Part shown: positions 33,403-61,992 of the stretch, in pieces
How the letters are laid out: each line of letters begins with the position of its first letter
How positions within the stretch are numbered: position 1 is the stretch's first letter
NCBI RefSeq assembly: GCF_001282785.1
Contig: NZ_CVUA01000001.1
Coordinates: 1,302,001 to 1,366,000 of the forward strand
Reading direction: 5' to 3'
From: Halolamina sediminis
GTDB lineage: Archaea > Halobacteriota > Halobacteria > Halobacteriales > Haloferacaceae
DNA: 64,000 nucleotides
Made by a program: the position numbers and the translations under genes
The notes under the pieces: model-generated
What the model was told of the DNA's origin: nothing
The model's database searches: none
What the model saw: the letters and a program-made list of their open reading frames with translations, nothing else

Positions 33403-33908
33403 ATGCGCGCTGTCTCGTTCGACTGCTTCGGCACGCTCGTCGCCGCCCCGCGCCCCTCGGACCCCGCCGAGGCTGTCGCTGAACAGTTGCGGACCCGCGG
33501 CGTCACGGTCCCCGCGGACTGGGGGAGGCGTACACCGAGTCGAACCTCGACTCGCCGGCCGGCGCCGGTGTGTCGCTGCCCGCCCACGCCCGCGGGGCGC
33601 TGTCGAGCCGCGGGATCGAGGCTGACGAGTCCGTGGGCCTGTTCTCGAACTGCTCGATGCCGGGGCTGGTCCGTCGCGTCCTCGGCCGTGTGGGGTTGCT
33701 CGACCAGTTCGATGCGGTGGTAACGAGCGTCGAGATTGGCTGGCGGAAGCCGGACCGCCGAGCGTTCGCCGCGGTCGCGGCCGAACTCGACGTGCCCGTC
33801 GACGCGCTGACCCACGTGGGCGACGACCGTGACGCGGACGGTGGAATCGGTCGATACGGCGGGCGGTACCTCCACATCGACGGCGGTCTGACCGAACTTC
33901 CGGACTGA
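33403..33908 (+). pseudogene. HAD-superfamily hydrolase with frameshift and internal deletion
   Basis: ATG at 33403 begins MRAVSFDCFGTLVAAPRPSD, a HAD motif I, and reads in frame up to VPADW. From 33526 the HAD sequence continues in another phase (EAYTESNLDSPAG, then LFSNCSMPGLVRR, GWRKPDRRAF and HVGDDRDADG), ending at 33908. One G added to the run of five at 33521-33525 restores a single frame. About 40 residues that relatives carry between the LPAH and LFSNC segments also seem absent, so a sequencing error alone would not explain everything. Confidence 0.7.
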
Positions 33909-35248: not shown

Positions 35249-35941
35249 TCAGTCGTCGTCTTCCTCTCCTTCGTCGTCTTCCTCTCCTTCGTCGTCTTCC
35301 TCTCCTTCGTCGTCTTCCTCTCCTTCGTCGTCTTCCTCTCCTTCGTCGTCTTCCTCTCCTTCGTCGTCTTCCTCTCCTTCGTCGTCTTCCTCTCCTTCGT
35401 CGTCTTCCTCTCCTTCGTCGTCTTCCTCTCCTTCGTCGTCTTCCTCTCCTTCGTCGTCTTCCTCTCCTTCGTCGTCTTCCTCTCCTTCGTCGTCTTCCTC
35501 TCCTTCGTCGTTGACGTGCTTATTTTTCCTCAGTTCCTTCGGGCAGTCGCCCTTCTCCTTCACCTGCGTGGTCACGGTAGCATCGATCCCACCGGTCACC
35601 TCCATAGTCACCGTGTCACCGGAGAGCTTCACGTTGTTGAACGTCGTCGAATCGCCGGGAGACAAGACCAGTTGGTTCGACATCTCCCCCCACGAGACGT
35701 CTTCGACGGTGAACTCCTCGCTGAACTGGTTTGTCACCATCACCCGTACCGGATCGGTCCCGTTGCCGTTTCCGTTACTCTTCTCGCAGGCCGAGACACC
35801 CACGTACGCCTCCTCGGACTCGACGACGTTGACGGACACCCCGCGCTCAGCGCTGACGCTCGTGAACCCGAAACTGCCCGTGACGAGCATCGTCGCGGCG
35901 ACGACCGCCAGCAGGACGCTGACCGCGCGGTGGGTGTTCAT
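35249..35941 (-). CDS. Secreted DUF1102-like protein with (DEGEED)n acidic tail
   Basis: A 230-residue protein. Residues 1-30 form a Sec signal sequence (LLAVVAATMLVTGSFG), followed by FTSVSAERGVSVNVVESEEAYVGV, the start seen in haloarchaeal DUF1102-type proteins handled by SipW-like peptidases. The body is a beta-rich domain with one Cys pair. The C-terminus consists of 14 DEGEED hexapeptides, a very acidic rod that could bind cations or fill space outside the cell. The ATG overlaps the upstream regulator gene (ATGA). Confidence 0.8.
   Translation of the reverse strand: MNTHRAVSVLLAVVAATMLVTGSFGFTSVSAERGVSVNVVESEEAYVGVSACEKSNGNGNGTDPVRVMVTNQFSEEFTVEDVSWGEMSNQLVLSPGDSTTFNNVKLSGDTVTMEVTGGIDATVTTQVKEKGDCPKELRKNKHVNDEGEEDDEGEEDDEGEEDDEGEEDDEGEEDDEGEEDDEGEEDDEGEEDDEGEEDDEGEEDDEGEEDDEGEEDDEGEEDDEGEEDDD
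35263..35514 (-). repeat. 14 x 18-base tandem repeat encoding DEGEED
   Basis: Fourteen consecutive 18-base units (plus-strand form CCTCTCCTTCGTCGTCTT) with no visible mismatch except in the outermost unit at 35497-35514. The near-perfect identity points to recent expansion or active homogenisation, and copy number is likely variable between strains. Confidence 0.95.
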
Positions 35942-36558
35942 TCTTTCCTGAGCTCGGGCGGTTTGTCGACTTCACCGATGCGCTGGCCCCGTGCATAGTA
36001 CGTGTGAGCGACCGCGGAGACGGTGAACATCGCGGTGATGGCGGTGGCCCACGCCGCGTCGGGCAGGAGCGCGAAGGGCCACGCCCCCAACCACACCGCA
36101 GCCGTGAGCGAGGCGGCGACCCCGGAGAGCCCGAGGTAGTAGACGCTCCAGGGGATCTCGTTCCCCTGGACGACCTCCATGTACACCTCGATATCGTTGA
36201 GGGAGTCGGTCGGCTCGACCACCCCCCGGTTCTTGTTGAACTCGACGATTCCCGCGTCGTCCATCATCGGCAGATGGGACTGTTGGAGCGCCGTATACAC
36301 TCGCTTGCGCTCCTCGTAGGACACCTCCTCGACGTCGACATCGTACTCCCAGGCAGCCACCTGTTCGGCGACGTCACCGATCTCTGCGGCACCATCCGTG
36401 GCCTCCAGTGCGTGAACCGCGTACCGACGACGACGGTTCGACAGCACCTCGAACAGCTCGTCGTCGGAGAGACTCGGCGATTCTCCTTCCTCGACCGAGC
36501 CCGGGGACATGTCGCCGGCAGCCTCCCCTTGCTGCTGGCGCGGAGTTGTGGATGACAC
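35938..36558 (-). CDS. Membrane-anchored winged-helix regulator (DUF7344-type)
   Basis: A 206-residue protein. Residues 30-110 (LSDDELFEVLSNRRRRYAVH...) form the winged-helix domain common to haloarchaeal transcription regulators. Two hydrophobic helices follow (YYLGLSGVAASLTAAVWLG and AWATAITAMFTVSAVAH) and a short cytoplasmic tail. It is co-transcribed with the DEGEED protein, whose start overlaps its stop, and probably senses or controls the envelope locus. The DUF number is from memory. Confidence 0.8.
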   Translation of the reverse strand: MSSTTPRQQQGEAAGDMSPGSVEEGESPSLSDDELFEVLSNRRRRYAVHALEATDGAAEIGDVAEQVAAWEYDVDVEEVSYEERKRVYTALQQSHLPMMDDAGIVEFNKNRGVVEPTDSLNDIEVYMEVVQGNEIPWSVYYLGLSGVAASLTAAVWLGAWPFALLPDAAWATAITAMFTVSAVAHTYYARGQRIGEVDKPPELRKE

Positions 36559-37010
36559 AGAGAGAATGTTAGCATAGTAGCATATAAACCCTATGTATAG
36601 TTTAACAGACCGGTTACTAAGTTGTCTTCACCTAATTCGGGCGAAAACGCGGTATATGGGGCTACCCAGACATATTTCCTAATACAATTCTAGAATTATA
36701 ATTTGATATAATGTCGGGGAATGGGTGTTCTCGGACGGTTCAGGTGAGGTTTGTTGTAGTAATCCAGCGCTTCAGGAAGCGTCTGACGAATATCATAATT
36801 CAGTCATTAATCGAGAGCTGCTTCAGCACCTGTTGGGACTCTATCGATTACGGGGTGCCGTGTCGAACCCATTTGCCAACCATCACGAGGGGAGACGATC
36901 GACGGACTGCGGCCCCGTAGGCCGACCCTGAACCGCCTCAGACGTGCCAATACTACGGTAGTTCGTATTCAAGTAGAGGTAACGCACGCCTCCCACCGCG
37001 GAGTCCGACA
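36559..37010 (+). other. AT-rich 450-base intergenic region
   Basis: No convincing gene. From 36590 to 36720 the sequence is AT-rich (CTAGAATTATAATTTGATATAA), quite unlike the flanks. Two short overlapping open frames (36711-36920 and 36725-36931) lack the codon bias of the neighbours. The region separates the divergent regulator and surface-protein genes and may hold promoters for both; for the right-hand gene, no clear TATA is close to the GTG at 37011. Confidence 0.6.
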
Positions 37011-38462
37011 GTGAACCGTCGAACACTCACACTCGCCATCGCGTTCGTCGTCGCGGGAACGCTCGCGTTCCCGTCGGCAGCTGCGCCACTGTTCGACGGC
37101 CCGACCGACCAGCTCGGAAGCGACGTGGAGCTCGCCCCGAGCAGCGACTACGCGTACCTCGACGGCGACGACGAGCTCGTCGTCGATCTCTCACCGTCGA
37201 ACCCGGCGATCGACGGCGAGGGCGTCAACGCCGACGGGCGGACGACGATCGGGGACGTGTTCCGGGTTCGATACAACGGCTCCCGGTACGCCGACGTCTG
37301 GCTGACCCACGGCTCGGACGCGGTGACGTTCGCCGTCGACGGCCAGCCGATCGAGTCGCCGGAGAACAACGTCACCCTCGCCCCCAACGAGTCCGCCGCC
37401 ATTTCCCTCACCGTCGACACTACCGGCGGCGCCGTCGACGGCCTCGTCGACGACATCACGATCCACGCCCGGGTCGCCGAGCCCGAAGAGCAGGCGGAGG
37501 AAAACGACGACGAGATCGACGGCGTTTCGACCCTGTCGAGTGCCCCCTCCGGAGATTCGCGGAAGTTCACCTCTCTCAGCGCGGAGCCGGGAAAGCCCGT
37601 CAACTTCGACACCAGCAGACTGCCGCTGGATCGCGTCGACGGCGAGGCTCTCACCTTCGACGGGCTCTCGGTGACGAGCCCGGACCGGACGTTCTCGGTG
37701 ATCGCCGAGGCCACAGAGGCCGGCGAGGCCCAGTCGTCGGTAGTCGACGACGGCGCCGACCCGTTGGGGGCGGTCAGGATGACCGTCCGCTCCGGGAACG
37801 TCTCGAACGCGACGATGCGGTTCAGCGCACCGCCGTCGTACTTCCGGGCCCAAAACGTCGATCCCGCGAACCTCGCGGTGTACCGCCACTCCGACGGCGA
37901 ACTCTCCAGAGTCCCCGTTACGGCGACCGGCGAACGAGATGGCCGACTGACGTTCGAGGCCGTGACACCCGGGTTCTCGACGTTCATCGTCGCCGTCGAT
38001 CGCCCGCGGCTTTCGGTGACCGACGCGAGCCTCGATACGAACGCCGTCGCGCCCGGCGAGCCCGCTACCGTCAGCGCCGCCGTCGTGAACGACGGCACGC
38101 TGGCCGGCGAGCGAACCGTCCGGGTGACTGTCGACGGCACGGTGGCCGCCGAGCGGACGGTCGCGGTGCCGCCCGGCGAGCGCGAGACGGTATCGGTCCC
38201 GATCGTCCGGAACGAGACCGGCGAGTACGCCGTGGCCGTCGCCGGGAGCGAGGCCGGAACGGTCCGCGTGGTGGCCGAGGAGCGTTCCACGGCGGTGCCG
38301 AGCGAGACGGCGACAGCCTCCGCGGCGTCGACGGCACAGCCCACGCAGTCCCCCGTCGGGGAGGCCAGCGGGTTCGGGCTCCGCGCGCTGGCCGGTCTGG
38401 TGGGCCTCCTGGTGATCGTCGCCGCGACACTCCTGCTGGCTCGCCGGACGCCACAGCCCTGA
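37011..38462 (+). CDS. Surface protein with PGF-CTERM-like tail
   Basis: A 483-residue exported protein. The GTG start gives MNRRTLTLAIAFVVAGTLAFPSAAA, a Sec signal. The N-terminal third (SDYAYLDGDDELVVDLSP) resembles DUF1102-type domains. A PGF-pre-PGF-like domain ends in VTPGFSTFIVAV, then a CARDB-like beta domain (LSVTDASLDTNAVAPGEPATVSA). A Thr/Ser/Ala stalk leads to GFGLRALAGLVGLLVIVAATLLL and Arg residues, a variant of the archaeosortase sorting tail in which PGF is replaced by SGFG. Confidence 0.78.
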   Translation: MNRRTLTLAIAFVVAGTLAFPSAAAPLFDGPTDQLGSDVELAPSSDYAYLDGDDELVVDLSPSNPAIDGEGVNADGRTTIGDVFRVRYNGSRYADVWLTHGSDAVTFAVDGQPIESPENNVTLAPNESAAISLTVDTTGGAVDGLVDDITIHARVAEPEEQAEENDDEIDGVSTLSSAPSGDSRKFTSLSAEPGKPVNFDTSRLPLDRVDGEALTFDGLSVTSPDRTFSVIAEATEAGEAQSSVVDDGADPLGAVRMTVRSGNVSNATMRFSAPPSYFRAQNVDPANLAVYRHSDGELSRVPVTATGERDGRLTFEAVTPGFSTFIVAVDRPRLSVTDASLDTNAVAPGEPATVSAAVVNDGTLAGERTVRVTVDGTVAAERTVAVPPGERETVSVPIVRNETGEYAVAVAGSEAGTVRVVAEERSTAVPSETATASAASTAQPTQSPVGEASGFGLRALAGLVGLLVIVAATLLLARRTPQP

Positions 38463-38508
38463 ACTGCCGGCAGACAGCCTTTTGCCGTTCGACCGTGACA
38501 GTTGACAT

Positions 38509-39360
38509 ATGGCCCGACCGGACGACGACTCGTTTCTCGCGGCGCTACGCGACGCCGTCCGGCTCCGGGACTGTATCGCACTCGCGCTCGTGCCGGCGAT
38601 CGCCGTCGCCGTCTTCGCGCTGCCGGTCGCGCGCCGGCGATCGCTCGCGTTCGCGTACGGTGACCCGTCGCTGCTGACCGCCTACACCGCGCAGTTCGTC
38701 CACTTCGACGCCGCCCACCTCGCCGCGAACGTGCTCGGCTACGCGCTCGTCGCGGGGTTCGGCTACGTGCTCGCGGCGCTGTCGGGCTACCGGCGGGTGT
38801 TCGGCGTCACGGCGGCGACGTACTTGGTGGCGTTCTCGCCGGCGCTGTCGTGGCTGAACCTCGCGCTCCCTCGCAACGCCGTCAGCTACGGGCTCTCGGG
38901 GCTGAACATGGCGTTCGTCGGGCTCCTCGCGCTCGTGCTAGTCGCGTACGGGAGCCGGTTGGACGACCGCATCAGCGTGCGATACGCGCCGGGGCTGTTC
39001 TTCGCGGTCGTGGCGCTGATCGCGTTGATCGTTCCACGGGCGGGAACCATTACCGGGATCGGCGCCGCGAGCGTAGTCGTCGCCGCCGGCTACGTGCTCT
39101 CTGCCCGAGGGTCGTGGCCCGAGAAACCCCGAGCCGGCTGGGGACCTCGCCTCATGCAGGCCGGATGGCTCGACGCCGGCGTCCTCGGCGTCGTCACGCT
39201 GTTCGGCTACCAGTTCGTCGGCTTCGACAGCCTCGTGGGCGACAGCGGAATCGTGAACGTCTACGTCCATCTGCTGGGGTTCTGTCTGGGTTTCATCGTC
39301 CCGTACACCGCGCTCGCGCTCGGCGTCCTCGGTCCCGACCGAGCCTTTTTGTCAGACTAA
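38509..39360 (+). CDS. Rhomboid-like intramembrane serine protease
   Basis: A 283-residue protein with at least six hydrophobic segments. QFVHFDAAHLAANVLGY corresponds to the rhomboid HxxxN helix. Ser130 in YGLSGLNM fits the GxSG nucleophile, and His254 in VHLLGFCLGF fits the catalytic His. Rhomboids cleave membrane-spanning segments. Placed between a surface protein and a signal peptidase, it may process or survey those products. The match is at motif level and remote families are possible. Confidence 0.72.
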   Translation: MARPDDDSFLAALRDAVRLRDCIALALVPAIAVAVFALPVARRRSLAFAYGDPSLLTAYTAQFVHFDAAHLAANVLGYALVAGFGYVLAALSGYRRVFGVTAATYLVAFSPALSWLNLALPRNAVSYGLSGLNMAFVGLLALVLVAYGSRLDDRISVRYAPGLFFAVVALIALIVPRAGTITGIGAASVVVAAGYVLSARGSWPEKPRAGWGPRLMQAGWLDAGVLGVVTLFGYQFVGFDSLVGDSGIVNVYVHLLGFCLGFIVPYTALALGVLGPDRAFLSD

Positions 39361-39379
39361 CTCCACCCATCGCGTACTC

Positions 39380-40543
39380 GTGTCCCCCCGACGGTTCCTG
39401 ACGATCGGCGCCGAACTGGCCGTGGCGCTAGTCGTGGCGTCGCTGCTACTCGGGCAGGTGCTTGGGACGCCCGTACTGCTCGGCTATGTCGAGACCGGGA
39501 GCATGGAGCCGACGCTCGACCCGGGTGACGGGTTCGTCGCGATCCCCGACGCCGTCGCCGGCGACGTGGCGGAGGGCGACGTGATCGTGTTCCGCGCCGA
39601 GGAGCTGCAGGGCGGCGGGCTGACGACCCACCGCGTCGTCGGTGAGACCGAACGGGGGTACGTCACGCAGGGCGACGCCAACCCATTCACCGACCAGGAC
39701 GGCGACGAGCCGCCGGTGAAGGAGGGGCAGATCGTCGCCAAGGCACTCCAGATCGGCGGGAGCGTGGTAGTGATCCCGAACCTCGGGACGTTGGTCACCG
39801 GGCTACAGAGCGCGTTCGGCGCGGTCCAACAGCAGCTCGCCGTGCTCACCGGCTCGCGAGCGTTTCTCGGCACCCAAGGGCTCGCGTACGTACTGCTGGG
39901 GCTGTCGGCGCTGCTGTACCTCTACGACCTGGTCGTGGGCGGTGGCGAGCTCCGGGACCGGAGCCGGAGCCGCGATCGCGATCAGGGGATCTCCCCGGGG
40001 CTGATCGTCGCCGTGCTGGCCGGGGTGCTCGTGGCGTCGGCGACGGCGGCGATGGTGGTCCCGGCCGGCACCCAGCAGTTCGGCGTCGTGAGCGCGGAGT
40101 TCGCTTCCGAGAACCCCACCGTGATCCGACAGGGGGAGTCGGCGACGCTCCCCTACACCGTCCCGAACGGGGGGCTCGTCCCGGTCGTGGCGTACCTCGA
40201 ACCGGGCAGCGAGGGGGTGGCCGTCTCGCCCGACCGCGTCCGGGTGGGGGGCCGGGAGCAGGCTACCGTCGAGATGACGCTGTCGGCACCCCCGGAGACG
40301 GGGTACTACCGCCGGTTCGTGACCGAGCATCGGTACCTCGCGGTGCTCCCCGGGCCGGTAATCGATACGCTGTACGACGTCCACCCGTGGCTCCCGATTC
40401 TCGTGATCGACGCCGGACTTGCCGGGTCCGTCGCACTGTTGGGGCTCGTGGTGCTCGGCGGCCGGCGCGTGCGGGTCAGGGATCGGAGCTCCCGCCACAG
40501 CCGGTCGAGCTTGCGACGGCTGCTCCGCTATCTGACGCGGTAA
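39380..40543 (+). CDS. SipW-like signal peptidase with C-terminal membrane/beta extension
   Basis: A GTG-started protein of 387 residues. After a first membrane helix, S41 in ETGSMEPTL is the nucleophile. H84 in TTHRVVGE takes the place of the bacterial lysine, as in archaeal and ER-type (SipW) signal peptidases, and VTQGDANPFTD follows. The remainder is unusual: two more helices, an Ig-like extracellular domain (about residues 225-310) and a final helix with a basic tail. It likely cleaves the secreted proteins of this locus. Confidence 0.88.
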   Translation: MSPRRFLTIGAELAVALVVASLLLGQVLGTPVLLGYVETGSMEPTLDPGDGFVAIPDAVAGDVAEGDVIVFRAEELQGGGLTTHRVVGETERGYVTQGDANPFTDQDGDEPPVKEGQIVAKALQIGGSVVVIPNLGTLVTGLQSAFGAVQQQLAVLTGSRAFLGTQGLAYVLLGLSALLYLYDLVVGGGELRDRSRSRDRDQGISPGLIVAVLAGVLVASATAAMVVPAGTQQFGVVSAEFASENPTVIRQGESATLPYTVPNGGLVPVVAYLEPGSEGVAVSPDRVRVGGREQATVEMTLSAPPETGYYRRFVTEHRYLAVLPGPVIDTLYDVHPWLPILVIDAGLAGSVALLGLVVLGGRRVRVRDRSSRHSRSSLRRLLRYLTR

Positions 40544-40591
40544 CGTTCGTTTCGGATGACCAATAGTTCTATGTAACGTCATCCCGCAGGG

Positions 40592-41866
40592 ATGGGCATG
40601 ACCGAGGGGACGAGCAGGCTCCGGGCTCGCGCGATCGTGGGGTCGTGGTTCGCCGTGTTGACCATCGTACTGGTCGCAGTCGCGGTCGTGGGGGGCGCCG
40701 CAGCGTACACCGCCCACGTCGCCCCGGGGACCGAGACCGAGCAGGTCGAGCGGACCCACTGGCGGGCCGACGGCGCGTTCCAGCACAGCGCCGACGTGAT
40801 CCGCGAGAACCCCGTCTTCCCCGTCGGATCGACGCTCTCGGACCGTTCGACGTACTACGCTGGGCCGGCGCCGGTGCTCGACGGCCAGTACACGCTGACG
40901 TACGCCGGGGCGGGCGCCGAGCCGGCGACGATCGACATCGACGCAACCCTCGTGATCGAGTCGACTTCGGAGGGGACAGTGTTCTGGTCGGACCGCACTT
41001 CACTCGACGGGACCAGCGCCGAGTCGGTTGCCCCGGGTGAGTCGGTCGACCTGGGGTTCTCGGTGAACGCGACGGCGCTCGCCGACAGGCAGGCGACGAT
41101 TCAGGAGAGCCTCGGCGGCACCCAGGGGGAGATCGCCACGTTCGTCGCGATCGACGCGACGGTCGCCGGGAGCCTGAACGGGCAGCCGGCCAACCGCTCG
41201 TTCACCCACCGACTGCCGATCGCCGTCAGCGGCGAGACGTATTCGGTCGGGCCCGCGGAGGCCGGAACCGAGCCGGTGACCACGACGCGGACGGTCCGGA
41301 CGCCCCGCGAGTACGGCCCGTTCTGGTCGATCGGCGGCCCGCTCCTGTTCGTCCTCGGCGTAGCCGGCGTCGGGGCGCTCGTCGCCGGATGGCGTGAGAA
41401 CGCGTTCACCCTCTCCGAGGCCGAGCGCGACCTGCTCGCGTTCCGCGAGGAGCGTGCGGAGTTCGACGAGTGGGTCGTCCGGGCACGCCTCTCCACGGCG
41501 TTCGACGACCGGGCCCGCGCCGACGCGGAGTCGCTGGGCGACGTGGTCGACTTCGCCATCGACGCCGACACCGGGGTTATCGAGAACCCGGACACGGGGC
41601 TGTTCTACGCGGTCGCCGACGAGCTGGTCGTAGTGTACGAGCCCCCCGCACTCGCGCGGCCCGAGCCGCCCGCGGGCGACGACGGGGACGACGGCCTCGG
41701 GGCGCTCCTCGACGACGGTCTGACGCTCACCGACGAGGGGGCTGCTGACGGCGAGGACGGCGACGGAGCGTCGGCAGCCGAGTCCGACGCCGCGAGCGAC
41801 GGGGAGTCGGAAGCGGGGGAGTCGTCGGCCGCCGACGGCAGTGAGTCGGAGTCGAGTGAGAAGTAA
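40592..41866 (+). CDS. DUF5305-type membrane protein
   Basis: A 424-residue protein with an N-terminal helix (VLTIVLVAVAVVGGAAAY), an extracellular beta-rich domain of about 200 residues, and a second helix near residue 250 (GPLLFVLGVAGVGALVAGW). A cytoplasmic part with a charged helix and an Asp/Ser/Glu tail of about 60 residues follows. The architecture matches DUF5305, often found next to SipW-type peptidases. An internal ATG six bases on is an equally good start. Confidence 0.82.
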   Translation: MGMTEGTSRLRARAIVGSWFAVLTIVLVAVAVVGGAAAYTAHVAPGTETEQVERTHWRADGAFQHSADVIRENPVFPVGSTLSDRSTYYAGPAPVLDGQYTLTYAGAGAEPATIDIDATLVIESTSEGTVFWSDRTSLDGTSAESVAPGESVDLGFSVNATALADRQATIQESLGGTQGEIATFVAIDATVAGSLNGQPANRSFTHRLPIAVSGETYSVGPAEAGTEPVTTTRTVRTPREYGPFWSIGGPLLFVLGVAGVGALVAGWRENAFTLSEAERDLLAFREERAEFDEWVVRARLSTAFDDRARADAESLGDVVDFAIDADTGVIENPDTGLFYAVADELVVVYEPPALARPEPPAGDDGDDGLGALLDDGLTLTDEGAADGEDGDGASAAESDAASDGESEAGESSAADGSESESSEK

Positions 41867-49204: not shown

Positions 49205-50502
49205 TGGCCGAGCTGAACGCCTACATCACCGAGCAGCGCATCGAGGGCGCCGACGACGGCCCGCTCGCGGGCAAGACCGTCGCGGTGAAAGACAACATCT
49301 CCACCGAGGGCGTCGAGACCACTTGCGGATCGAAGATGCTGGAGGGGTACGTTCCCCCCTACGACGCCACGGTCGTCGAGCGCCTGAAAGAGGCGGGCGC
49401 GACGATCAACGGCAAGGCAAACATGGACGAGTTCGGGATGGGGACGACGACCGAGACCTCCCACTTCGGCGCGACGCTGAACCCCGTCGACACCGACCGC
49501 GTGCCGGGGGGCTCCTCCGGCGGCTCCGCGGCGGCTGTCGCCGCGGGCGAGGCCGACCTCGCGCTGGGGAGCGATACGGGCGGCTCGGTCCGTGCGCCCG
49601 CGGCGTTCTGTGGCGTCGTCGGGATCAAGCCCACCTACGGGCTCGTCTCCCGCTACGGGCTGGTGGCCTACGCGAACTCGCTGGAACAGATCGGGCCGAT
49701 CGCGCCGACCGTCGAGGAGGCCGCGGCGCTGCTGGACGTGATCGCTGGTTCCGACGACCGCGACGCGACGACCGTCGACGAGGGTGACGGGTCGAACTAC
49801 GCCGCGGCCGCGGACGGCGACGTCGAGGGGATGACGATCGGGATCCCGAACGAACTGCTCGAGGGCGCCGACGAGGGCGTCGTCGAGACGTTCCGGGACG
49901 CGATTGACGAACTCGAGGCGCAGGGCGCCGAGACGGTCGAGGTGTCGATGCCTTCCGTCGAGAAGGCGGTCGCGGCGTACTACGTGATCGCGATGTCGGA
50001 GGCCTCCTCGAACCTCGCGCGCTTCGACGGCACTCGCTACGGGCTGAACGCCGTGGAGGCCGGCGACTACGACGACCTCTCGGAAGCTGGCAACTGGAAC
50101 GAGGCGTTCGCGACCGCCCGCGAGGAGGGGTTCGGTCCCGAAGTGAAGCGTCGGATCCTGCTCGGGACGTTCGCGCTGTCGGCCGGGTACCACGACAAGT
50201 ACTACGCCAAGGCGCAGGACGCTCGGGAGTGGATCAAGCAGGACTTCGACGAGTCGCTGCAGGAGGCGGACGTACTCGCGTCGCCGACGATGCCCGTCCC
50301 GCCGTTCGAACTGGGCGAGGGGCTGGAGGACCCGCGGACGATGTACCTCGCCGACGCGAACACGGTGCCGGTGAACCTCGCGGACCTGCCCGCGATCTCG
50401 GTTCCGGCGGGGGAGGCCGACGGCCTGCCGGTCGGGCTGCAGCTGGTCGGACCGAAGTACGGCGAGGAGACGATCGTTCGGGCGGCGAGTGCGCTAGAGT
50501 GA
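49204..50502 (+). CDS. gatA: Glutamyl/aspartyl-tRNA amidotransferase subunit A
   Basis: A 432-residue amidase-signature enzyme supplying ammonia for Gln-tRNA or Asn-tRNA formation. The catalytic Lys is in VAVKDNI, the cis-Ser in the GGSSGGSAAAV segment and the nucleophile Ser in SDTGGSVRAPA. The C-terminus LPVGLQLVGPKYGEE is complete, so the IS element 27 bases after its stop has not damaged it. It marks the left edge of the accessory island. Confidence 0.96.
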   Translation: MAELNAYITEQRIEGADDGPLAGKTVAVKDNISTEGVETTCGSKMLEGYVPPYDATVVERLKEAGATINGKANMDEFGMGTTTETSHFGATLNPVDTDRVPGGSSGGSAAAVAAGEADLALGSDTGGSVRAPAAFCGVVGIKPTYGLVSRYGLVAYANSLEQIGPIAPTVEEAAALLDVIAGSDDRDATTVDEGDGSNYAAAADGDVEGMTIGIPNELLEGADEGVVETFRDAIDELEAQGAETVEVSMPSVEKAVAAYYVIAMSEASSNLARFDGTRYGLNAVEAGDYDDLSEAGNWNEAFATAREEGFGPEVKRRILLGTFALSAGYHDKYYAKAQDAREWIKQDFDESLQEADVLASPTMPVPPFELGEGLEDPRTMYLADANTVPVNLADLPAISVPAGEADGLPVGLQLVGPKYGEETIVRAASALE

Positions 50503-50528
50503 GTCGGTAGCTCGGGTTTTCGTTTGGT

Positions 50529-51467
50529 GGGCTCTGGTGAATCGCTATACTGCGGCGGGATAGGTCGTCAGTTCAAAGGAGTTGAAGCGGGAGACTGTCG
50601 ATGCCTATGTCGAAAATCTCCCGCTTCACTCGCAAAACTGTGACGTTAGCTAAAAATGCTGTTGGTGGCCGAGGCGAAGTCGCCGCCCCCGAAGGGGGTG
50701 GCGGCTTCGCCGACTACGCCGTCGTTTCGCTTCACTGTCTCCGGATTTACTTGGCGAAACCGTATCGTGAAGCGCTTGATCTCTTGAGCGAGATGCCGCA
50801 TATTTTGGCCGAGATCGGCCTCGAAGAGGGCGATCTCCCGCATCACTCCACGCTTGTGAAGGCGTTTGATAGGTTAGAGATGAAGATCTGGCGGGTGCTC
50901 CTGCGCCTTTCGTCGCAGCTGCACGACACCGCCGATCACGCCGCAATGGACGCGACGTTTTTCGACCGCGAAACTGCCAGCAAGCACTACTGTCGCCGGA
51001 CGAATTACCGCGTTCAAACGCTCAAAGCGACTGCGCTCGTTGATACGAAAACGCAAGCTGTGCTCGACGTTCACTGTACGACTGAGAAGCGCCACGACAC
51101 GCAGATCGGCTGGCAACTCGCCCGCCGCAACGCGGGCGAGATTGCCAGCCTCGCCGCTGACAAAGGCTACGATTGGCAGCAATTGCGCAAGAAATTGCGC
51201 GAAGAGGGCGTGAGACCGCTGATCAAGCACCGCGAGTTCCGACCCATCGATTGCGCGCATAACGCGCGCATCGATGGGTCTCTATACGGCCAAAGAGCAC
51301 TGTCTGAGACCGTCTTCTCGACGATTAAGCGCACGCTCGGCCACGCGGTGCGTGCCCGAGCGTGGTACCGCGAATTTCGTGAGATCGTCCTGATGTGTGC
51401 GGTCCACAACATCAAGCGATCCGTGAAACAGTGAAACGAAACGCCTTCTGGCGATTCACCAGAGCCC
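50529..51467 (+). mobile_element. IS5-type insertion sequence
   Basis: The element is 939 bases long. Terminal inverted repeats are perfect over 17 bases: GGGCTCTGGTGAATCGC at 50529-50545 and its complement at 51451-51467. It contains one transposase gene. No target-site duplication can be seen: the left flank ends TCGTTTGGT, the right flank begins CGACAGGC. That, plus the truncated gene on its right, suggests that an adjacent deletion removed one original flank. Confidence 0.93.
50601..51434 (+). CDS. IS5-family transposase
   Basis: A 277-residue DDE transposase, intact. The triad is read as Asp in AAMDATFFDRE, Asp in SLAADKGYD and Glu in LSETVFSTIKR, with the IS5-type Y(2)R(3)E(6)R arrangement. 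HCLRIYLAKPYREALDLL is the N-terminal helix-turn-helix region. The start may be the second ATG (MSKISRF, 50607). Confidence 0.93.
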   Translation: MPMSKISRFTRKTVTLAKNAVGGRGEVAAPEGGGGFADYAVVSLHCLRIYLAKPYREALDLLSEMPHILAEIGLEEGDLPHHSTLVKAFDRLEMKIWRVLLRLSSQLHDTADHAAMDATFFDRETASKHYCRRTNYRVQTLKATALVDTKTQAVLDVHCTTEKRHDTQIGWQLARRNAGEIASLAADKGYDWQQLRKKLREEGVRPLIKHREFRPIDCAHNARIDGSLYGQRALSETVFSTIKRTLGHAVRARAWYREFREIVLMCAVHNIKRSVKQ

Positions 51468-52886
51468 CGACAGGCATTGAGCATGTCGATGAAAGCCAGC
51501 TACGTGGCGCTGGTACTCGGCATTCGCTTCCGGCGGCTGCTGGGTGCACACCCGGACAATTCGATTACGATTACCTATCGGGATATCGACGCGGACGAAG
51601 AAGTTGTGTCGGAAGATACGATCGACGTGCCGCCAGTCAATATGGCGTTCATCGATGCCGTCGAGTCTGCTCCCTCGGATATGGCCGACTACGATTCATT
51701 CGAGGAGTTCGAAGCCGCAGTCGCTGACTTAGACATTCCTGAAGACGCGAAGTACGGCTACGATACGACGACGCTTACCGACGATCTCGGGGTCACATAC
51801 AACGTCTCCTATGAGTATGGGAATATTGATCTCGAGGCAATGGGCGAGGCGGTCGACGCCGATGATCGCAACTTCACAGTGACGACCCCGGGGAGCGATA
51901 ATTTCCGCTATCGCTATCGAATTTCGACGAATGATGCAGGGGTTGACGTCTATGCAAACGGGCGGGTGTTAAACACGAATGAATGGCCATTCGAGATCGA
52001 CCGGCACCAGACACTAAACCGATTCAATGGGGTAATTCGCATCGAACCTGCCGCAGAAGAGCATGAGGTGCCGACGAATAACGAAAAGACAGGGATCGAT
52101 GAGACATCGTCGCTGTGGCAGAAGCTACGGGAGTGGCTCGATGACGACTCTCGAAAGCCACAGCGAAAGGTATACGACTCTGATAGCGACGACGATGACG
52201 ACGAGTCAAGCGGTGGCGATGGGGGTGGCAGTGGTAGCACGAACGATGGCGACGACGACACCGACACAATAGATGATGACGACACCGGAGGTGATGACGA
52301 TACCACGGGCGGGGACGATGATGAGACGGGCGATGACGACGAGTCAAGCGGTGGCGATGGCGGTACGGGTGACGATGATGATGACGACACGGGCGACGAC
52401 GACGGTGACGACACGAGTGATGGCGACGATGAATCGGGTAATGGCGATGATGACGGCACGGATGACGATGACAAGACCGACGACGATGAGGATGAATCTG
52501 AGCAAACAGAGATTGAAGCACTCATAGAGAACATCGAATCGTCTGCAAAGCCGGGAGATAGCCTCCGTTCAGAAACCGAGATCGACGGTGGCGAGATCGA
52601 TCTCATCCACGAGCAAGCGGATGGCCCTACAAATCTCTATAAGATTGTGCACGGGCAGGCCCGTCCCAACGACATCTACGAGATGATGATGTACCAAGAC
52701 CATTTCAAACGGTCTGGAGACGGGGAGTATGGGCAGACCATCCTACTCTGCACGGGCCTTACGGATGACGCAGAGTCCGATCACGACAGTATCACACACC
52801 GGACTGACGACCACGATGAGCCCTATGAATTTGTCGTCGTCACGCCGGATACGGCCTCTGAGGATCTGCCGTGGGTAACTGAGTAA
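51468..52886 (+). pseudogene. N-terminally truncated GHKL-ATPase-like protein with acidic linker and nuclease-like C-domain
   Basis: The frame is open right to the IS end, with possible new starts TTG 51477 or ATG 51483 giving about 468 residues. Residues 1-220 (YRYRISTNDAGVDVYANGR, HEVPTNNEKTGID then SSLWQKLREW) resemble the transducer half of MORC/MutL-like GHKL ATPases; the ATP-binding half is missing. A linker of about 110 residues is nearly all Asp, Gly, Ser and Thr. The last 125 residues resemble a PD-(D/E)XK-type domain (GGEIDLI, NDIYEMMMYQDHF), but the expected ExK is replaced. The family assignment is moderate; the 5' truncation is well supported. Confidence 0.6.
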
Positions 52887-52896
52887 CGCTCCACCA

Positions 52897-54435
52897 ATGG
52901 CTCCACGAAAAAGCGTCGAACGAATTCCGGGTGGCGTCGATAGCCAAACCGAGTCGATTGAGGAGATCCTCAGGTATGTTGACTCGGAATCGCCACTTGT
53001 CGAGGAGCTCACCGATTGGATTGAGGATGAATTCTCACTTGATGGTGACACCCGTGCCACGCGAGTGGTCCGATTTCTCGTCGGGATCGATCTCTTAGCT
53101 CAAACCGGGGAGCGGCTTAGCCCCGGGACCGAAGGCGGGAAATGGCTCGGTGAGGGGGCTGATGCAGAGACATATTTCGGGGCATTCGACAGTTCCATTG
53201 TCGGCTTTCGAGAAGTACTCGAAGAGCTATTCCGACACGAAGCCACCGCTGAGGAGCTCAGGGAGTTTCTGGCCAAGGATATCGGAGTTGACTGGGAAAC
53301 ATCGGAGCAGGTCACACGGCGGCTGAATTATCTCCGGTCGATTGGCTACGTGGAACTTGCCGATGGGACGTATTCGCTCAGTGCGGATGGCCGCGATTTC
53401 ATCGAGGGCAAATCTGAACGGGCTCAGTTCCAAGACCCTCCAGCCATATCGGACATCGTCGACGTTCTCGATCAAGAGACGCCCCCAGAGATCTATCTCG
53501 TCACTCAAGATATCGGGGACTTCGGCGATAGCCAAATTCACATTCCGGAAGACAATCGACACGATATTTCTCCACGGACACTGTCGGCAAACGCGCTATT
53601 CATCCATCTCGTCGACGACGAGTTCCGTGGTTATTCACGGCAGTCAGAACCCGCGACTGAAACGACGTGGAACGGAACCCGATATCGACGAGTCCCCGTC
53701 GACGTCGTCCGGTTCGACACTCCCGTCGGTATCCGAGAGGTTATCGGTGAATTGCTGGATACGGATGCAACAACCCGCCCAGACAGCTACCCGTTCTCAG
53801 CAACCGGCCTTGCAGACGTCACGATCGGCGAACTCGGGTCAGACGCCGCCTGGACGATCCTCGGCGCCGTCGACGCCGGTCGCACATACGCAGAGGCAGT
53901 CCCGGAGTACGAATTCGAGAATCCCCCGACCAAAGACGATATTGAGGGGCTCTACTACCCGGATGACGGTGTCCTTCCGGAGATCATCGGCCAGATGACC
54001 CAAGCGCTGACTGGTGGTCAGCATATCGTCTTAGTTGGCCCACCTGGCACGGGAAAAAGTGAGCTGGCAAAGCAGGTAGCTAGCCATCTCGTCGAATCGA
54101 ACGTGACCATGGTGACTGCGACTGCCGACTGGTCGTCGTTCGACACGATCGGCGGGTATCAGCCTGAGGGTCAATCGGGGCTGAATTTCTCGCCGGGTGT
54201 CTTCCTCGACCGGTTCCAAGACGATGACGGGAATCCGACTAACGAGTGGCTCATCGTCGACGAACTGAATCGCGCCAACGTCGACAAAGCCTTTGGATCG
54301 CTGTTCTCGGCGCTGGCTGAGGATAGCGTCACAACGGCATTCAAAGACGATGACGTCATGGATGTTTCCATCAGTATCGAAGGCTTCCGCCGCAGTCTCG
54401 TGGTTTTACTGGGCAAGGTAATCGGCCGTGGGTAA
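52897..54435 (+). pseudogene. C-terminally truncated McrB-like AAA+ ATPase
   Basis: 512 residues. Residues 1-170 contain two winged-helix-like modules (VVRFLVGIDLLAQTGERLSP, LNYLRSIGYVELADGTYSL). The AAA+ domain begins near residue 350, with Walker A VGPPGTGKSELAK (about 379) and Walker B WLIVDELNRANVDKAFG (about 452), the form typical of McrB-type ATPases. The protein stops 60 residues later at 54435, lacking sensor 1, the arginine finger and the lid, so a deletion joint is expected near 54390. It begins 10 bases after the GHKL-like gene, so the two were an operon. The 170 bases after it show no gene. Confidence 0.72.
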
Positions 54436-54606
54436 TCGTGTGTGAGTAACCGGCCGCCGCACCGCGTTTTTGCCTAGTGATGTGTCAGTATCTAATTTGT
54501 AAATCAGAATGAGTAGTCTGGTGGATTCGTCCAAGATACTGTCGATGAAGTGAGTGAAGGATACCGCTGCAGGTAGAGGGAACACGACAGATACTGGGAG
54601 AACCAG

Positions 54607-55149
54607 TTAGACTGAATTCTGGTGGTCGTGGGTTACCTGTACTTCCGTCCTGCTATCGTCGGTTTCAACGATGTCCTGCTCACGGTCAACGTTCGGCAAG
54701 CTCCCATCGTCGTACGCTTCGGCGGGGTACACTGACACGCACGTCGCGTTCAACTCAGGATCCCGGCCTTCGTAGACCGGCTTCAGCACGACACTCCCGG
54801 CTATTAGGCGTTCGTACAGTGGGCTGGGGAGCGCCGTTATGATCTTTACTCGGGCTGCGTCGACGTCTCCAGTTACTATGTCGTCGTTACTAACGCCTGT
54901 GAGGCTACTCGTGCCGATGAACTCCAACGAGGGCCTGTCTACAGCATCGCTTGCCAGGACTGCTTTGTCGTGTCGTTCGTGGTAGTACCATGCTGTCTTC
55001 GCACCTTGTGTCGTATCGACTCGCGGACTCTGGAATCCGACCTCGGCGACGAATTCGACAGGGAGTTGGAACTGCTCGTTGCTGGAGACAGTACGGCGTA
55101 ACTGTGAGGGTAACGGGTCCGCCGGCGGTTGCTTTTCTGATTCGACCAT
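54607..55149 (-). CDS. Unrecognised island protein, 180 residues
   Basis: An ATG-started frame with an acidic product and no membrane helix or known motif. FQLPVEFVAEVGFQSPRVDTTQG and YYHERHDKAVLAS could be a beta-rich domain. A TATA-like TTTATATT (minus strand, about 55176-55183) is 27-34 bases before the ATG, in good agreement with a leaderless transcript. Its codon use is less GC-biased than that of core genes. Function unknown. Confidence 0.6.
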   Translation of the reverse strand: MVESEKQPPADPLPSQLRRTVSSNEQFQLPVEFVAEVGFQSPRVDTTQGAKTAWYYHERHDKAVLASDAVDRPSLEFIGTSSLTGVSNDDIVTGDVDAARVKIITALPSPLYERLIAGSVVLKPVYEGRDPELNATCVSVYPAEAYDDGSLPNVDREQDIVETDDSRTEVQVTHDHQNSV

Positions 55150-55523
55150 CGGTTCAAACCCCGTAGATGATACTTGTGAATATAAACCCTCGCACAGGAC
55201 TCAGATTGCCCTGTCCGTTGGAATCGCCTGTAATCGCCACTGAGCGACGTATTTCGGGCTCTTCTACAGATGGCGTAGAAAAGAACGTGAGCAGACTCAG
55301 GGCCGATGACTCAGTGGAAGGTTCAGTTGAGTTCGCACATAGCTCTGGCTGCTGTTATGGAATTTTCGTAACCCCAACACAGAGGCCCGATCAGTGGTCC
55401 CGTTCGTTGAGATGGTACCAGGCAGAGCAGGTCGGCTCTGGTCTCATCGGCTGTCTGGCGGTGTGTCCGATGCTCTCTGGGTGCCAGAAAGTACGCACGG
55501 CCGGCGTGTCACTGGTGAGCCGC
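55150..55523 (+). other. 374-base intergenic region between divergent island genes
   Basis: Holds the promoter of the leftward gene. A plus-strand frame is open from 55167 into the next gene, but its content (Cys-rich, mixed codon use) looks non-coding, so it is not used. No tRNA, repeat or operator is recognised. Confidence 0.55.
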
Positions 55524-55877
55524 ATGTCGTCGATGACACCGACTGTGACTGAGAAAGACGCACTCCCGTCCGTGGCTGGGACTGATTCGTGGGAGTCGAT
55601 CGGGCGGCAGCTTCTCCGGGCGAAACTGGAGCATACTGGTGAGGTTGTTGTGCGGGATGCGTTCCAGCAGGCTGCGAGCCGTATCGGCGCTGACGAATCG
55701 TTGACTGCGGACGATATTCGGGAGCTACGCCGTGCACTGGAAACTGCAGAAGCGGCCGTCAGCCTCGCTGCGACAGCCTCCCCGGAGACAGCACCACTCC
55801 CGGACGTTTGGGAGTTCCTCGACGCTGACGGGAGATCGGCGTACGTTGCTGAAGTCGAACGCCGGCGCGAACACTGA
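55524..55877 (+). CDS. Conserved-looking haloarchaeal protein, 117 residues
   Basis: Starts MSSMTPTVTEKDALPSV after a GGTGAG Shine-Dalgarno-like stretch at 55514-55519. The product is helical and acidic (WESIGRQLLRAKLEHTGEVV, LRRALETAEAAVSLAATA, and VWEFLDADGRSAYVAEVERR). I associate similar small proteins with haloarchaeal accessory regions but know no function. The visible ribosome-binding site contrasts with the leaderless core genes. Confidence 0.65.
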   Translation: MSSMTPTVTEKDALPSVAGTDSWESIGRQLLRAKLEHTGEVVVRDAFQQAASRIGADESLTADDIRELRRALETAEAAVSLAATASPETAPLPDVWEFLDADGRSAYVAEVERRREH

Positions 55878-56022
55878 CCGCGTGGCGTTGTAGCAAGCAA
55901 TACTACTACTGCGTTATTCGACAGCCTCTTTCCCGGTCATTCGAGTTCCGACGGACTGGCGAGAATCAGATTAGCCGCCGATCGGTGTTCAGGACCACCC
56001 CCTCGAAGCCATTCTAGAAAAT

Positions 56023-56097
56023 TTGTGATGGGAACATTTGTTCGACTGTCACAATTCTGTTCTCATAACATGTTTGTTTTTCAACAAGAAGTTTAAT
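56023..56097 (+). promoter_or_regulatory. Nested palindromes and TATA box upstream of integrase gene
   Basis: TTGTGA (56023-56028) and TCACAA (56049-56054) form an outer inverted repeat around an inner perfect palindrome GAACATTTGTTC (56032-56043), nearly concentric. A TATA-like TTTAATA at 56092-56098 is 22-28 bases before the ATG at 56120. The arrangement suits a dimeric repressor controlling the recombinase genes. The rest of the gap from 55878 is AT-rich and has no gene. Confidence 0.5.
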
Positions 56098-56119
56098 ACA
56101 GCACCCATTACGGTGAGGT

Positions 56120-57424
56120 ATGACGGACCGACCGAAAGACAACCCAGACGATACCGACGAGTATCGAGACTGGGGACACGACCTCACAACCCTCCAAGAC
56201 ATCGGGGAAGAGATCCTCGACGACTGGCGGGAAGACAACCCGCACTCACCTCGGGACTACCCAACGGTTCAATGGCTAGCCGAGAACGGCTACTCACATC
56301 TCCGCTGGATACTCCGAGAGAAGCACGATATGGGTACCCCGGAGTTCTTCGTGCTCCTCACTTCCGCGGGTGGCCAGGAAGGATACGAGTGGCACATCGA
56401 CGACGTCGCAACGATCGGGATCGCAAAAACGTATCTCGACGACCGCGTCGCGTGTCGTGATTGGGAATACTCGACAAAGCGAACGAACCGTTCACGGATC
56501 AACAGCGTCCTCCGGCGGTTTAGCGAAGAGTACGGCGACGCGGCGGTCGTCGCGTACGCAAACGATCCGGAACGGAAAACAGAGCTCTACGAGACGTTCA
56601 AGCAGATCGGGATCAGCCTCCGTGACGAGTGTGCGTCCGACGAGTCCGCACTGAAGTTCGTCCGTGCCGCCCATCGGTTCTTCGAATGGCTCGAACGATC
56701 GGACCGGATCGAGTTCGACCCGATGGAAGACATCGAAGAGGAGTTCACGTGGGCGGTAGACCCAGAGCCGACGCCGCTGACAGAGGAGCAAGTCAAGCGA
56801 CTCTGGATTACTGCTGAGACGGACGAAGAACGCGTCTTGGTGATCGGGTACTGTGTCTGGGGTGTTCGAACGAGCGAACTTCCCCGCGTGCACGTCACGC
56901 AGTTCCAGTTCGACCAGGAGCCCCCAAAGATCAGCTTCGACGAACGTGACCGGAAGAACGGGCTCGGCGAGGTCAGCCTCCTGTTCGGGCTTGACGCGGT
57001 GGCGAGTCTCCTCGACACACGCGCTCGCCAGCCGGATTGGAACGGGCATCTCTTCCCGAGTCCGAAGGACGGCCGGCCGTTCCTCTGTGGGAGGCAGGCG
57101 CGGGAGAAGTTCAAAGATCTCTGTCGAAGAGCCAACGTCACCATCGACGGTGACGTCGCCACCCCGAAACACGGCCGGTCGTTGTACTACAACGTCCTGG
57201 CCGATGCGGAGACTGATCTGCTGGAGATGGCCGCGAACCTCGCGGAGGAACAGGGCGCAAAAGACCCAGTCTCGGTGCGGGACTTCTACTTGACGCCGGA
57301 GCGGCGAGATCGGTACCGCCGGGTCTTCTTCCGCTACCGGATGCGCCAGATCTTCCCGGACGATGCGTTCGCGGACACCGGCGACGGCCCCGGCTTCGAC
57401 CGATCACTGGACGACTTCGAGTGA
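56120..57424 (+). CDS. Tyrosine recombinase/integrase-like protein
   Basis: 434 residues. Residues 95-205 look like a SAM-like core-binding domain (RTNRSRINSVLRRFSEEYGD). The catalytic part has R250 in WGVRTSELPRVH and the HxxR-like box in TPKHGRSLYYNVL. The nucleophile Tyr is less certain (possibly in RDFYLTPERR), so it may be a diverged or partly inactive member. It is followed by a second recombinase after 34 bases in the same direction, suggesting an operon. Confidence 0.72.
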   Translation: MTDRPKDNPDDTDEYRDWGHDLTTLQDIGEEILDDWREDNPHSPRDYPTVQWLAENGYSHLRWILREKHDMGTPEFFVLLTSAGGQEGYEWHIDDVATIGIAKTYLDDRVACRDWEYSTKRTNRSRINSVLRRFSEEYGDAAVVAYANDPERKTELYETFKQIGISLRDECASDESALKFVRAAHRFFEWLERSDRIEFDPMEDIEEEFTWAVDPEPTPLTEEQVKRLWITAETDEERVLVIGYCVWGVRTSELPRVHVTQFQFDQEPPKISFDERDRKNGLGEVSLLFGLDAVASLLDTRARQPDWNGHLFPSPKDGRPFLCGRQAREKFKDLCRRANVTIDGDVATPKHGRSLYYNVLADAETDLLEMAANLAEEQGAKDPVSVRDFYLTPERRDRYRRVFFRYRMRQIFPDDAFADTGDGPGFDRSLDDFE

Positions 57425-57458
57425 GCCAGCACGCACCCCCATTCCAAACAACAGACCA

Positions 57459-58640
57459 ATGACTGACACCGTGGATGACGAAGAGTTCCTGAAACAACGA
57501 CTCTCCGAGGACCCGTCGGAGGAGTTCCTCGAAGCGATCGCTTCAACGATCGTCGATGAGATGTCGGAGTCGTTCCCGGAGCTCTCCCGGAAGTCTCGAC
57601 CGATGGATGCGGTTCTCCGCGAGTTTCGTGAGAACAAACTGGAGGAAGTTGACTCAACCCGGCAGTACGAACGGAAGTTGGATTACCTTCAGACGTACCT
57701 TGCCGAGGAAGCACGCGTCGAAACAACGGAGGATCTCACCAGTGAAGATGTCGAACGGTACGATACGTGGCGGAAATACGAATCGTTGACGCGTGAGGAG
57801 CCGTTATCGGTCTCTACACTACGGGACGATATGTATCTCTTCCGTGAGTCCATCCAGCATCTGATCGAGCACCGGATGGCGCCGGTTCGCTTCGAGAAGT
57901 CCGTCAATATTCCCGAACCCGAATACGAGAACGGTGACGGGGTGGATGAAAAACAACTGGACCCGGAGATTGCGAAGGCTGCCCTGGAGTATCTGCGGAA
58001 GTACGAGTATGCTACTGTCGAGCACGTCGCCATGGAGTTGATGTGCCAGTTCGGTCCGCGCAAGAACGGCCTACGTGGGCGTAACGTGGATGATTTCGAT
58101 TACGACGAGGGAACACTCACGTTCAAGCATGACTCGGCGACGCCGCTCAAGAACGACGAAGGAAGCGAACGTGAGGTCACTCTCTACGGCGCTGTTCCCG
58201 AGATCATTCAGGACTACCTCGCCAATAAACGTCCCGCGGCCGTGGACGACGAGGGACGCGAGCCGTTGTTGACGAAAGGGGACGGGCGGATCAGTCCCTC
58301 GACGCTGCAGACGATCGCGTACATGTGGACGCGGCCGTGCGCGGTCGGGCTCGGGTGCCCACACGACCGGGACCCTGAGGAGTGTGAAGCGGCTCAGACG
58401 AACAATTCCGCGTTCAAGTGTCCGAGCAGCCGGGCACCACACCACATCCGCACCGGGTACATTACTGACCAGAAGAACCAGGGCGTGTCGGCGGAGGCGG
58501 TTGCCCAGCGGTGCGACGTTTCTCCTCGCGTGCAGGACCTTCACTATGATCTCCCGGACGAGACTGAAGAACGGGAACGGTACGAGGACGAGTTCCGGAA
58601 CGCCGACGATGATCCGGACTCCGGGTTCACTCACGAGTAA
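57459..58640 (+). CDS. Tyrosine recombinase (XerC/D-like integrase)
   Basis: 393 residues. The N-terminal helices (RQYERKLDYLQTYLAEEARV) form the core-binding domain. R201 in FGPRKNGLRGRNVDDF is the first catalytic Arg, APHHIRTGYIT is the HxxR box and Tyr in VQDLHYDLPDE is the predicted nucleophile. A Cys/His cluster (LGCPHDRDPEEC, KCPSS) matches the haloarchaeal subgroup. It is related to the recombinase at 60701-61714, which has the same block. The start is ATG 57459; longer reading is not needed. Confidence 0.85.
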   Translation: MTDTVDDEEFLKQRLSEDPSEEFLEAIASTIVDEMSESFPELSRKSRPMDAVLREFRENKLEEVDSTRQYERKLDYLQTYLAEEARVETTEDLTSEDVERYDTWRKYESLTREEPLSVSTLRDDMYLFRESIQHLIEHRMAPVRFEKSVNIPEPEYENGDGVDEKQLDPEIAKAALEYLRKYEYATVEHVAMELMCQFGPRKNGLRGRNVDDFDYDEGTLTFKHDSATPLKNDEGSEREVTLYGAVPEIIQDYLANKRPAAVDDEGREPLLTKGDGRISPSTLQTIAYMWTRPCAVGLGCPHDRDPEECEAAQTNNSAFKCPSSRAPHHIRTGYITDQKNQGVSAEAVAQRCDVSPRVQDLHYDLPDETEERERYEDEFRNADDDPDSGFTHE

Positions 58641-58795
58641 TCGCTGGGAAGGTCGCGTAATCGTGCGGGTTTCGGTCTGTCCTCTCGCCGAAGTTCGATA
58701 GGAGCCAGTAGCCTGAGGGTGTACGAAGGTGCCGGGACGCTCAGTGAGCGTGGTGTCGTTATCTGGCGGGAAGTGCGATCGACGGTCTGGTGTTC

Positions 58796-58842
58796 GTCGA
58801 TTCAATCGACCGCGACTAGATTCTCAAAAAGAGCAAGATATT
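58796..58842 (+). promoter_or_regulatory. Promoter and palindromic operator of the wHTH-nucleotidyltransferase pair
   Basis: GTCGATT-C-AATCGAC (58796-58810) is a perfect 15-base palindrome. It is followed after about 20 bases by GATATTTATAAATAAG (58828-58843), a strong TATA element 30-40 bases before the GTG at 58872. An autoregulating antitoxin is expected to bind at such a site. The 231 bases between the recombinase and this gene contain nothing else recognisable. Confidence 0.55.
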
Positions 58843-58871
58843 TATAAATAAGTTGCGTGTTTTGAGATAGA

Positions 58872-60655: not shown

Positions 60656-60700
60656 ATAAAGCGGTTGTGATGCGGTTCTCCCGTGGGTCGTGGACGTGGG

Positions 60701-61714: not shown

Positions 61715-61992
61715 GGTCAGTTTTCTCCGGTCAGGCGAACCCCACGAGCCCCGGGTACTCCCCGTTCCATTCCGACGAGCTGAACGCCCGAAATAACCAA
61801 AAGGAAGCGCTGTCACGCCGCGTGACCAAGTCCTGCAGCGCCCATTCGTTTTTCGAACGGACCACATCGACGAGAGTCCGGTACAGTGTTTTACCATCGG
61901 ACCGTCGTACATGCTTGGTTACCTTCGATTTTCTACCGTGGGTCGGCACATCCGTTCGTCTCGTGAAAATCGAGAGAACGAGTGCCCACCAG
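61715..61992 (-). other. Intergenic region at the right end of the island
   Basis: The 278 bases between the recombinase and the SHOCT gene have mixed composition. A minus-strand frame (61731-62048) runs through it but overlaps the SHOCT gene and lacks typical codon bias, so I do not call it. No tRNA gene or att-like duplication of a tRNA 3' end is seen. Confidence 0.5.

Follow-up and report, generated by a model that had tools for sequence, protein, structure and literature searches.

The six-gene locus at positions 35249 to 41866 of the window (the whole stretch of 64,000 nucleotides analyzed here, C1:1302001-1366000 of the 2.84-Mb contig of genome G000) is a real and conserved cassette of a surface-fibre kind, and this kind was described in 2025 for the haloarchaeal Tat-fimbriae (tafi) (Galeva et al., iScience 2025, 28:111793, as cited in PMC12687288). 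In this Halolamina-type haloarchaeon, the locus is probably one half of a split tafi-like surface-fibre system, the half that processes and anchors the fibres. What is new here is its divergence, the placing of subunit genes apart from processing genes within this genus, and a rhomboid gene as a regular member of the set. The features computed were the gene set, its conservation, domain homology, conserved catalytic residues and a subunit array encoded at a remote site.

All six genes that the original prediction had named within 6.6 kb were found as real, intact ORFs coinciding with those picked by codon-position GC and acidity, and their homologues were found in the same order and on the same strands in many genomes. 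Two genes are read leftward, encoding a DUF7344 winged-helix protein (35938-36558) and a TafC-like secreted protein (35249-35941), with the stop of the former overlapping the start of the latter (ATGA). Beyond a gap of 452 bp, four genes are read rightward: those for a TafF-like surface protein (37011-38462), a rhomboid intramembrane serine protease (38509-39360), a SipW-like signal peptidase of the archaeal S26B type (39380-40543) and a DUF5305 membrane protein (40592-41866). They are separated by 46, 19 and 48 bp, which is what an operon would show. The divergent intergenic region (36559-37010) is AT-richer and is the site of one to four subunit genes in other genera. Elsewhere in the window, a HAD-type hydrolase gene lies in two frames (33466-33908), through a frameshift or a sequencing error, and an uninterrupted 263-aa ORF occupies the same place in locus L032. 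From 50001 to 62000 the GC content falls from about 70% to 56 to 60%, possibly marking an acquired segment.

The assignment to the tafi kind comes from Haloarcula-type loci with SipW, DUF7344, DUF5305 and rhomboid genes, whose proteins exceeded the cut-offs of the NCBIfam models NF052520 to NF052523 (TafA, 250 bits; TafC, 555 bits; TafE, 219 bits; TafF, 571 bits). Locus L068 passes all four models; its attribution to Haloarcula is suggested by these models together with the host reported in the literature. L063 belongs to a different genus within that family and exceeds the cut-offs of TafA, TafC and TafE. A cassette of SipW, DUF7344 and DUF5305, with the rhomboid optional, is common to the window, L068, L121 and L122. 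Since the same gene set passes the Taf cut-offs in Haloarcula-type loci, we place the window locus in the tafi kind, which it resembles in having a TafC-like gene beside DUF7344 together with TafF-like, SipW-like, DUF5305 and often rhomboid genes, with homologous domains. This supports the original proposal of an extracellular-fibre type of locus, but not its statement that the gene combination had no described function. The window locus also differs from tafi. Its TafC-like and TafF-like proteins scored 31.2 and 36 bits against cut-offs of 410 and 420, so far below these equivalog thresholds that functional equivalence with the Taf proteins is not established. Its cassette has neither a TafA nor a TafE gene, its TafF-like protein carries PGF-pre-PGF and CARDB domains and a single C-terminal helix, and the Halolamina subunit array lies about 1.06 Mb from the cassette. 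The locus is best described as a relative of tafi that has diverged from it: it probably works in a similar way, although its proteins fail the family cut-offs.

Regions of roughly 18 kb flanking rhomboid and SipW homologues were collected, and their genes were called and labelled with iterated profiles. The gene set, whose conservation the original prediction had proposed to check, does co-occur across haloarchaea: of the 43 collected loci with this SipW, 40 carried DUF5305 and 40 the TafF-like gene. A DUF7344 gene adjoined 36 of them, small subunit genes were present in 34, a TafC-like gene in 32 and a rhomboid gene in 28, the last count being biased by the choice of many loci through their rhomboid. 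DUF5305 was found in one of the 38 loci lacking this SipW. Class-wide positions, which are independent of the rhomboid-based choice of loci, placed a rhomboid within 3 kb of 60 of the best 79 SipW matches and of 72 of the 147 listed. Within the class Halobacteria, the SipW family occurred in 299 of 391 sampled genomes and the rhomboid family in 167. Two tafi-like cassettes lie on plasmids, pHME505 of Hfx. mediterranei (L135) and pHrrPV6 of Halorubrum sp. PV6 (L134), where their genes are mostly annotated as hypothetical; on the PV6 plasmid the gene in the TafF position, which precedes the rhomboid gene, shares one base with it.

The SipW-like protein matched the archaeal signal peptidase I model TIGR02228 (58.8 bits; cut-off, 51.85), with a serine in a GSMEPT motif and a histidine in a TTHRV motif, and S41 and H84 were invariant in an alignment of 20 sequences. 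It has a long C-terminal extension, comprising an extracytoplasmic C-terminal domain and a final TM helix, and hydropathy indicated four helices, the third and fourth being separated by about 110 aa; the predicted SipW-like peptidase with extra domains was borne out. It is the sole full-length copy of its family in the genome. The DUF5305-type protein was likewise correctly named (Pfam, 154.5 bits); with two helices by hydropathy, its probable topology is a TM segment, an extracytoplasmic domain of about 210 aa, a second TM segment and an acidic cytoplasmic tail. The predicted membrane winged-helix regulator matched DUF7344 (PF24035, 105.5 bits) and has a hydrophobic C-terminal part with one strong helix; it is a probable regulator. 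A role in anti-phage defence was also considered and rejected, as PADLOC returned no match for the rhomboid, SipW or DUF5305.

Domain analysis of the TafF-like protein revealed a signal peptide, an N-terminal domain homologous to fibre subunits, PGF-pre-PGF (36.4 bits; cut-off, 28) and CARDB (26.2 bits; cut-off, 22.7) domains, and a tail reading E-SGFGL, followed by a TM helix and ARR. Hydropathy gave a signal helix and a C-terminal helix. The N-terminal domain aligned with the small fibre subunits at an hhalign probability of 98.6% over 157 columns. The protein had been predicted to be PGF-CTERM-like; it is a surface protein with PGF-pre-PGF, but the PGF-CTERM sorting signal model was unmatched by its SGFG tail, and that label was dropped.

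The predicted rhomboid-like protease scored slightly below the Pfam cut-off (21.0 bits against 22.6), although it is catalytically complete. Among 23 relatives, the GxSG serine (S130) and the TM6 histidine (H254) were invariant and the HxxxN motif (H70/N74) was nearly so; at least five helices were seen by hydropathy. Of 41 rhomboids, 29 adjoined a protein whose C-terminus forms a TM tail, compared with 47 of 871 genes overall, as judged by a crude hydropathy rule in loci partly chosen by rhomboid similarity. The same pairing was seen outside the full cassette in 6 of about 11 cases, and the tail beside the rhomboid has a conserved motif, E-P-[AGS]...-TM-RR. This gene pairing is suggestive of a tie between the rhomboid and cleavage of surface parts. 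A strict pairing of rhomboid and tail was not upheld: the EP[AGS] tail persists at loci L112 to L115, which have no rhomboid nearby, and L068 has a rhomboid and a TafF without the EP tail. Among loci with a strong TafF, a rhomboid lies near it in several genomes, not all. In view of the tails without a rhomboid and the tail-less L068, we propose only tentatively, as a possibility that we doubt, that the rhomboid cuts the EP[AGS]-TM-RR tail of the TafF-like base protein and so acts as an archaeal rhombosortase counterpart controlling fibre anchoring or release, with the Halolamina subunits provided in trans from about 1 Mb away.

The same observations could mean that the locus is a rhombosortase-like sorting unit, in which a rhomboid is dedicated to processing the TafF-like/CARDB protein with its tail, and in which the main function is this pairing rather than fibre making. 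Rhombosortases and their dedicated targets are gene neighbours (PMC3237569), and the window resembles the rhombosortase/GlyGly-CTERM arrangement in that a rhomboid gene adjoins one for a protein with a motif-TM-basic tail. However, the rhomboid scored 18.2 bits against the rhombosortase model TIGR03902, for which the cut-off is 84, and the tail motif is EP[AGS] rather than GG. The looseness of the pairing and the way in which it was counted also weigh against a sorting unit, and the rhomboid is a less constant partner than SipW, DUF5305 or the TafF-like gene. We therefore regard it as unlikely.

The TafC-like protein was identified by its weak TafC match and by its homologues, which occupy the same place in relatives. 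It has a Sec-type signal peptide ending GSFG-FTSVSAER, which is its one signal helix by hydropathy, a single beta domain of about 110 aa and a (DEGEED)n acidic tail; no Pfam domain matched it. Its N-terminus aligned with the small fibre subunits at 98.5% over 54 columns, largely in the signal peptide. The prediction of a DUF1102-like secreted protein with an acidic repeat tail held for secretion and for the tail, but DUF1102 is a distant resemblance only. That model touches the TafF-like protein instead, at 20.1 bits and under its cut-off of 22.2, and the name was abandoned as absent or below threshold. The tail is encoded by a perfect tandem array (35253-35511) of 14.4 copies of an 18-bp unit, 100% identical, and the corresponding tails in Halolamina relatives are entirely different, being PTPT-rich or KTETPEPDEE-rich. 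A perfect array together with unrelated repeats in relatives points to a fast-changing spacer or surface-exposed stretch; changes in length by whole 6-aa units would preserve the frame. The protein may be a minor subunit or an adhesin. In another reading, the locus makes a matrix or an adhesin without polymer fibres, and the acidic-tailed protein and the TafF-like CARDB protein are themselves the working surface proteins. This would suit the fact that these two are the only surface proteins encoded at the locus, and CARDB and an acidic repeat tail fit an adhesin or ion-binding surface protein. It is nevertheless improbable, given the homology of the TafF-like N-terminal domain and the TafC-like N-terminus to fibre subunits and the constant company that such subunits keep with the cassette in other genera.

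The main fibre subunits do not lie within the 6.6 kb that the original prediction named; this genus encodes them at other sites. In other genera, one to four small Tat-signal proteins (M-RR-K-F...GTGAFTSV) are encoded between the DUF7344 and TafF-like genes; no small subunit gene was found in the cassette in the window (36559-37010) or in genomes G073, G089, G279 (Halolamina rubra, a relative in the same genus; contig NZ_BBJN01000045) and G391. A search of the organism's own genome with the subunit profile gave nine places. Four are TafE/TafA-related Tat-signal subunits (MQRRKFIAGLGSL...GAFTSV) at C1:272067-275260, with RR motifs and TafE scores of 47 to 63 bits against a cut-off of 155. This array adjoins AMP-ligase-like and antiporter-like genes, and no SipW gene adjoins it. 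Of the remaining places, one lies at 1.857 Mb and two lie at 2.752 Mb; the others are weak matches to the TafC-like and TafF-like window proteins. The 1.857-Mb site (C1:1855146-1858055; L104:6147-9056) encodes a 969-aa protein with the subunit domain as an N-terminal module followed by a long unrelated region. The 2.752-Mb site (C1:2752077-2754540; L105:8078-10541) encodes two proteins that carry Tat signals and are related to TafE; a further DUF7344 gene adjoins them, and no SipW lies nearby. Halolamina relatives also have subunit arrays outside the cassette, and those of G073 and G089 lie close to a 625-aa gene resembling the one beside the array in G000, which suggests one ancestral separation. 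The subunit profile matched PDB chain 9p0a, 'Pilin', at 1e-29; its Tat signal (MNRRNVLVGLG...GAFSSV) and domain fit the profile, but the match is to the in-trans subunit family and not to the window proteins directly. That the locus is a reduced, decaying tafi locus in which fibre making ended with the loss of the subunit genes, as their absence from all five cassettes might suggest, is very unlikely, since none of the six genes is broken, their catalytic residues are conserved, at least five Halolamina genomes have kept the cassette (with genes apparently split in G391) and subunit arrays are retained at another site. At the G391 locus (L109), the SipW and rhomboid genes each appear split in two, through frameshifts or assembly errors.

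The link to TasA in the original prediction stood insofar as SipW-like peptidases and TasA-like proteins go together, but kinship to canonical TasA/camelysin (Peptidase_M73) is distant. As in TasA/SipW of Bacillus, there is a dedicated SipW-type peptidase, along with secreted beta-domain subunits in which an aromatic residue directly follows the cleavage site; unlike the TasA/SipW and M73 proteins, the window proteins matched neither Peptidase_M73 nor TIGR04088, the SipW-dependent signal model. Peptidase_M73 matches were found in the same genome at 412 to 416 kb, and canonical TasA membership of the window locus was rejected in favour of a true TasA-type locus at 411 to 419 kb. This separate TasA/camelysin-type locus (C1:411.6-418.6 kb; L131:7668-14610) encodes a DUF7344-like HTH protein, Peptidase_M73-like and TIGR04088 proteins, and a further SipW-like peptidase, the genome's second, of 359 aa (417-419 kb). 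Its secreted proteins bear Tat-like signals and SipW-dependent sites reading 'TAYFSD', and one of them includes a VWA-like domain. AlphaFold models of two window domains, from alignments of the window protein and one relative, were all-beta at low confidence (pLDDT 59 and 61), and Foldseek gave neither a significant PDB match. The top match of the TafF-like N-terminal domain model was the Sulfolobus acidocaldarius thread filament (PDB 7pnb, PMC9715654; E 1.9e-3, TM-score 0.39), a resemblance that is a hint only.

For the preferred reading, a split tafi-like system, we infer the export route, cleavage sites, polymerization, anchor role, rhomboid substrate and regulation as follows. The SipW-like peptidase would remove signal peptides at ...G-(A)F-T-S-V... 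from the TafC-like and TafF-like proteins and from the Tat-exported small subunits, the latter supplied in trans from 272 to 275 kb. Service of this remote array by the window SipW is presumed; the second SipW-like enzyme could serve it instead. The subunits would polymerize via TasA-like beta domains, and the TafF-like protein, with its C-terminal helix in the membrane and its subunit-like N-terminal domain, would form the base of the fibre or its anchor on the cell side. A minor or outer position may fall to the variable-tailed TafC-like protein, while DUF5305 may partner either SipW or the anchor in the membrane and DUF7344 may be the regulator. The rhomboid may cut the TafF-like tail to release or hand over the fibre.

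These findings extend the Tat-fimbriae beyond a description centred on Haloarcula to a cassette found across the class Halobacteria, and they name SipW, DUF5305, DUF7344 and often a rhomboid as its regular partners. As of 2025, the natural substrates of haloarchaeal rhomboids still awaited identification (PMC11985538), and the TafF-like tail offers a specific candidate for one of them. The Halolamina genomes further indicate that subunit genes and processing genes can part within a genome.
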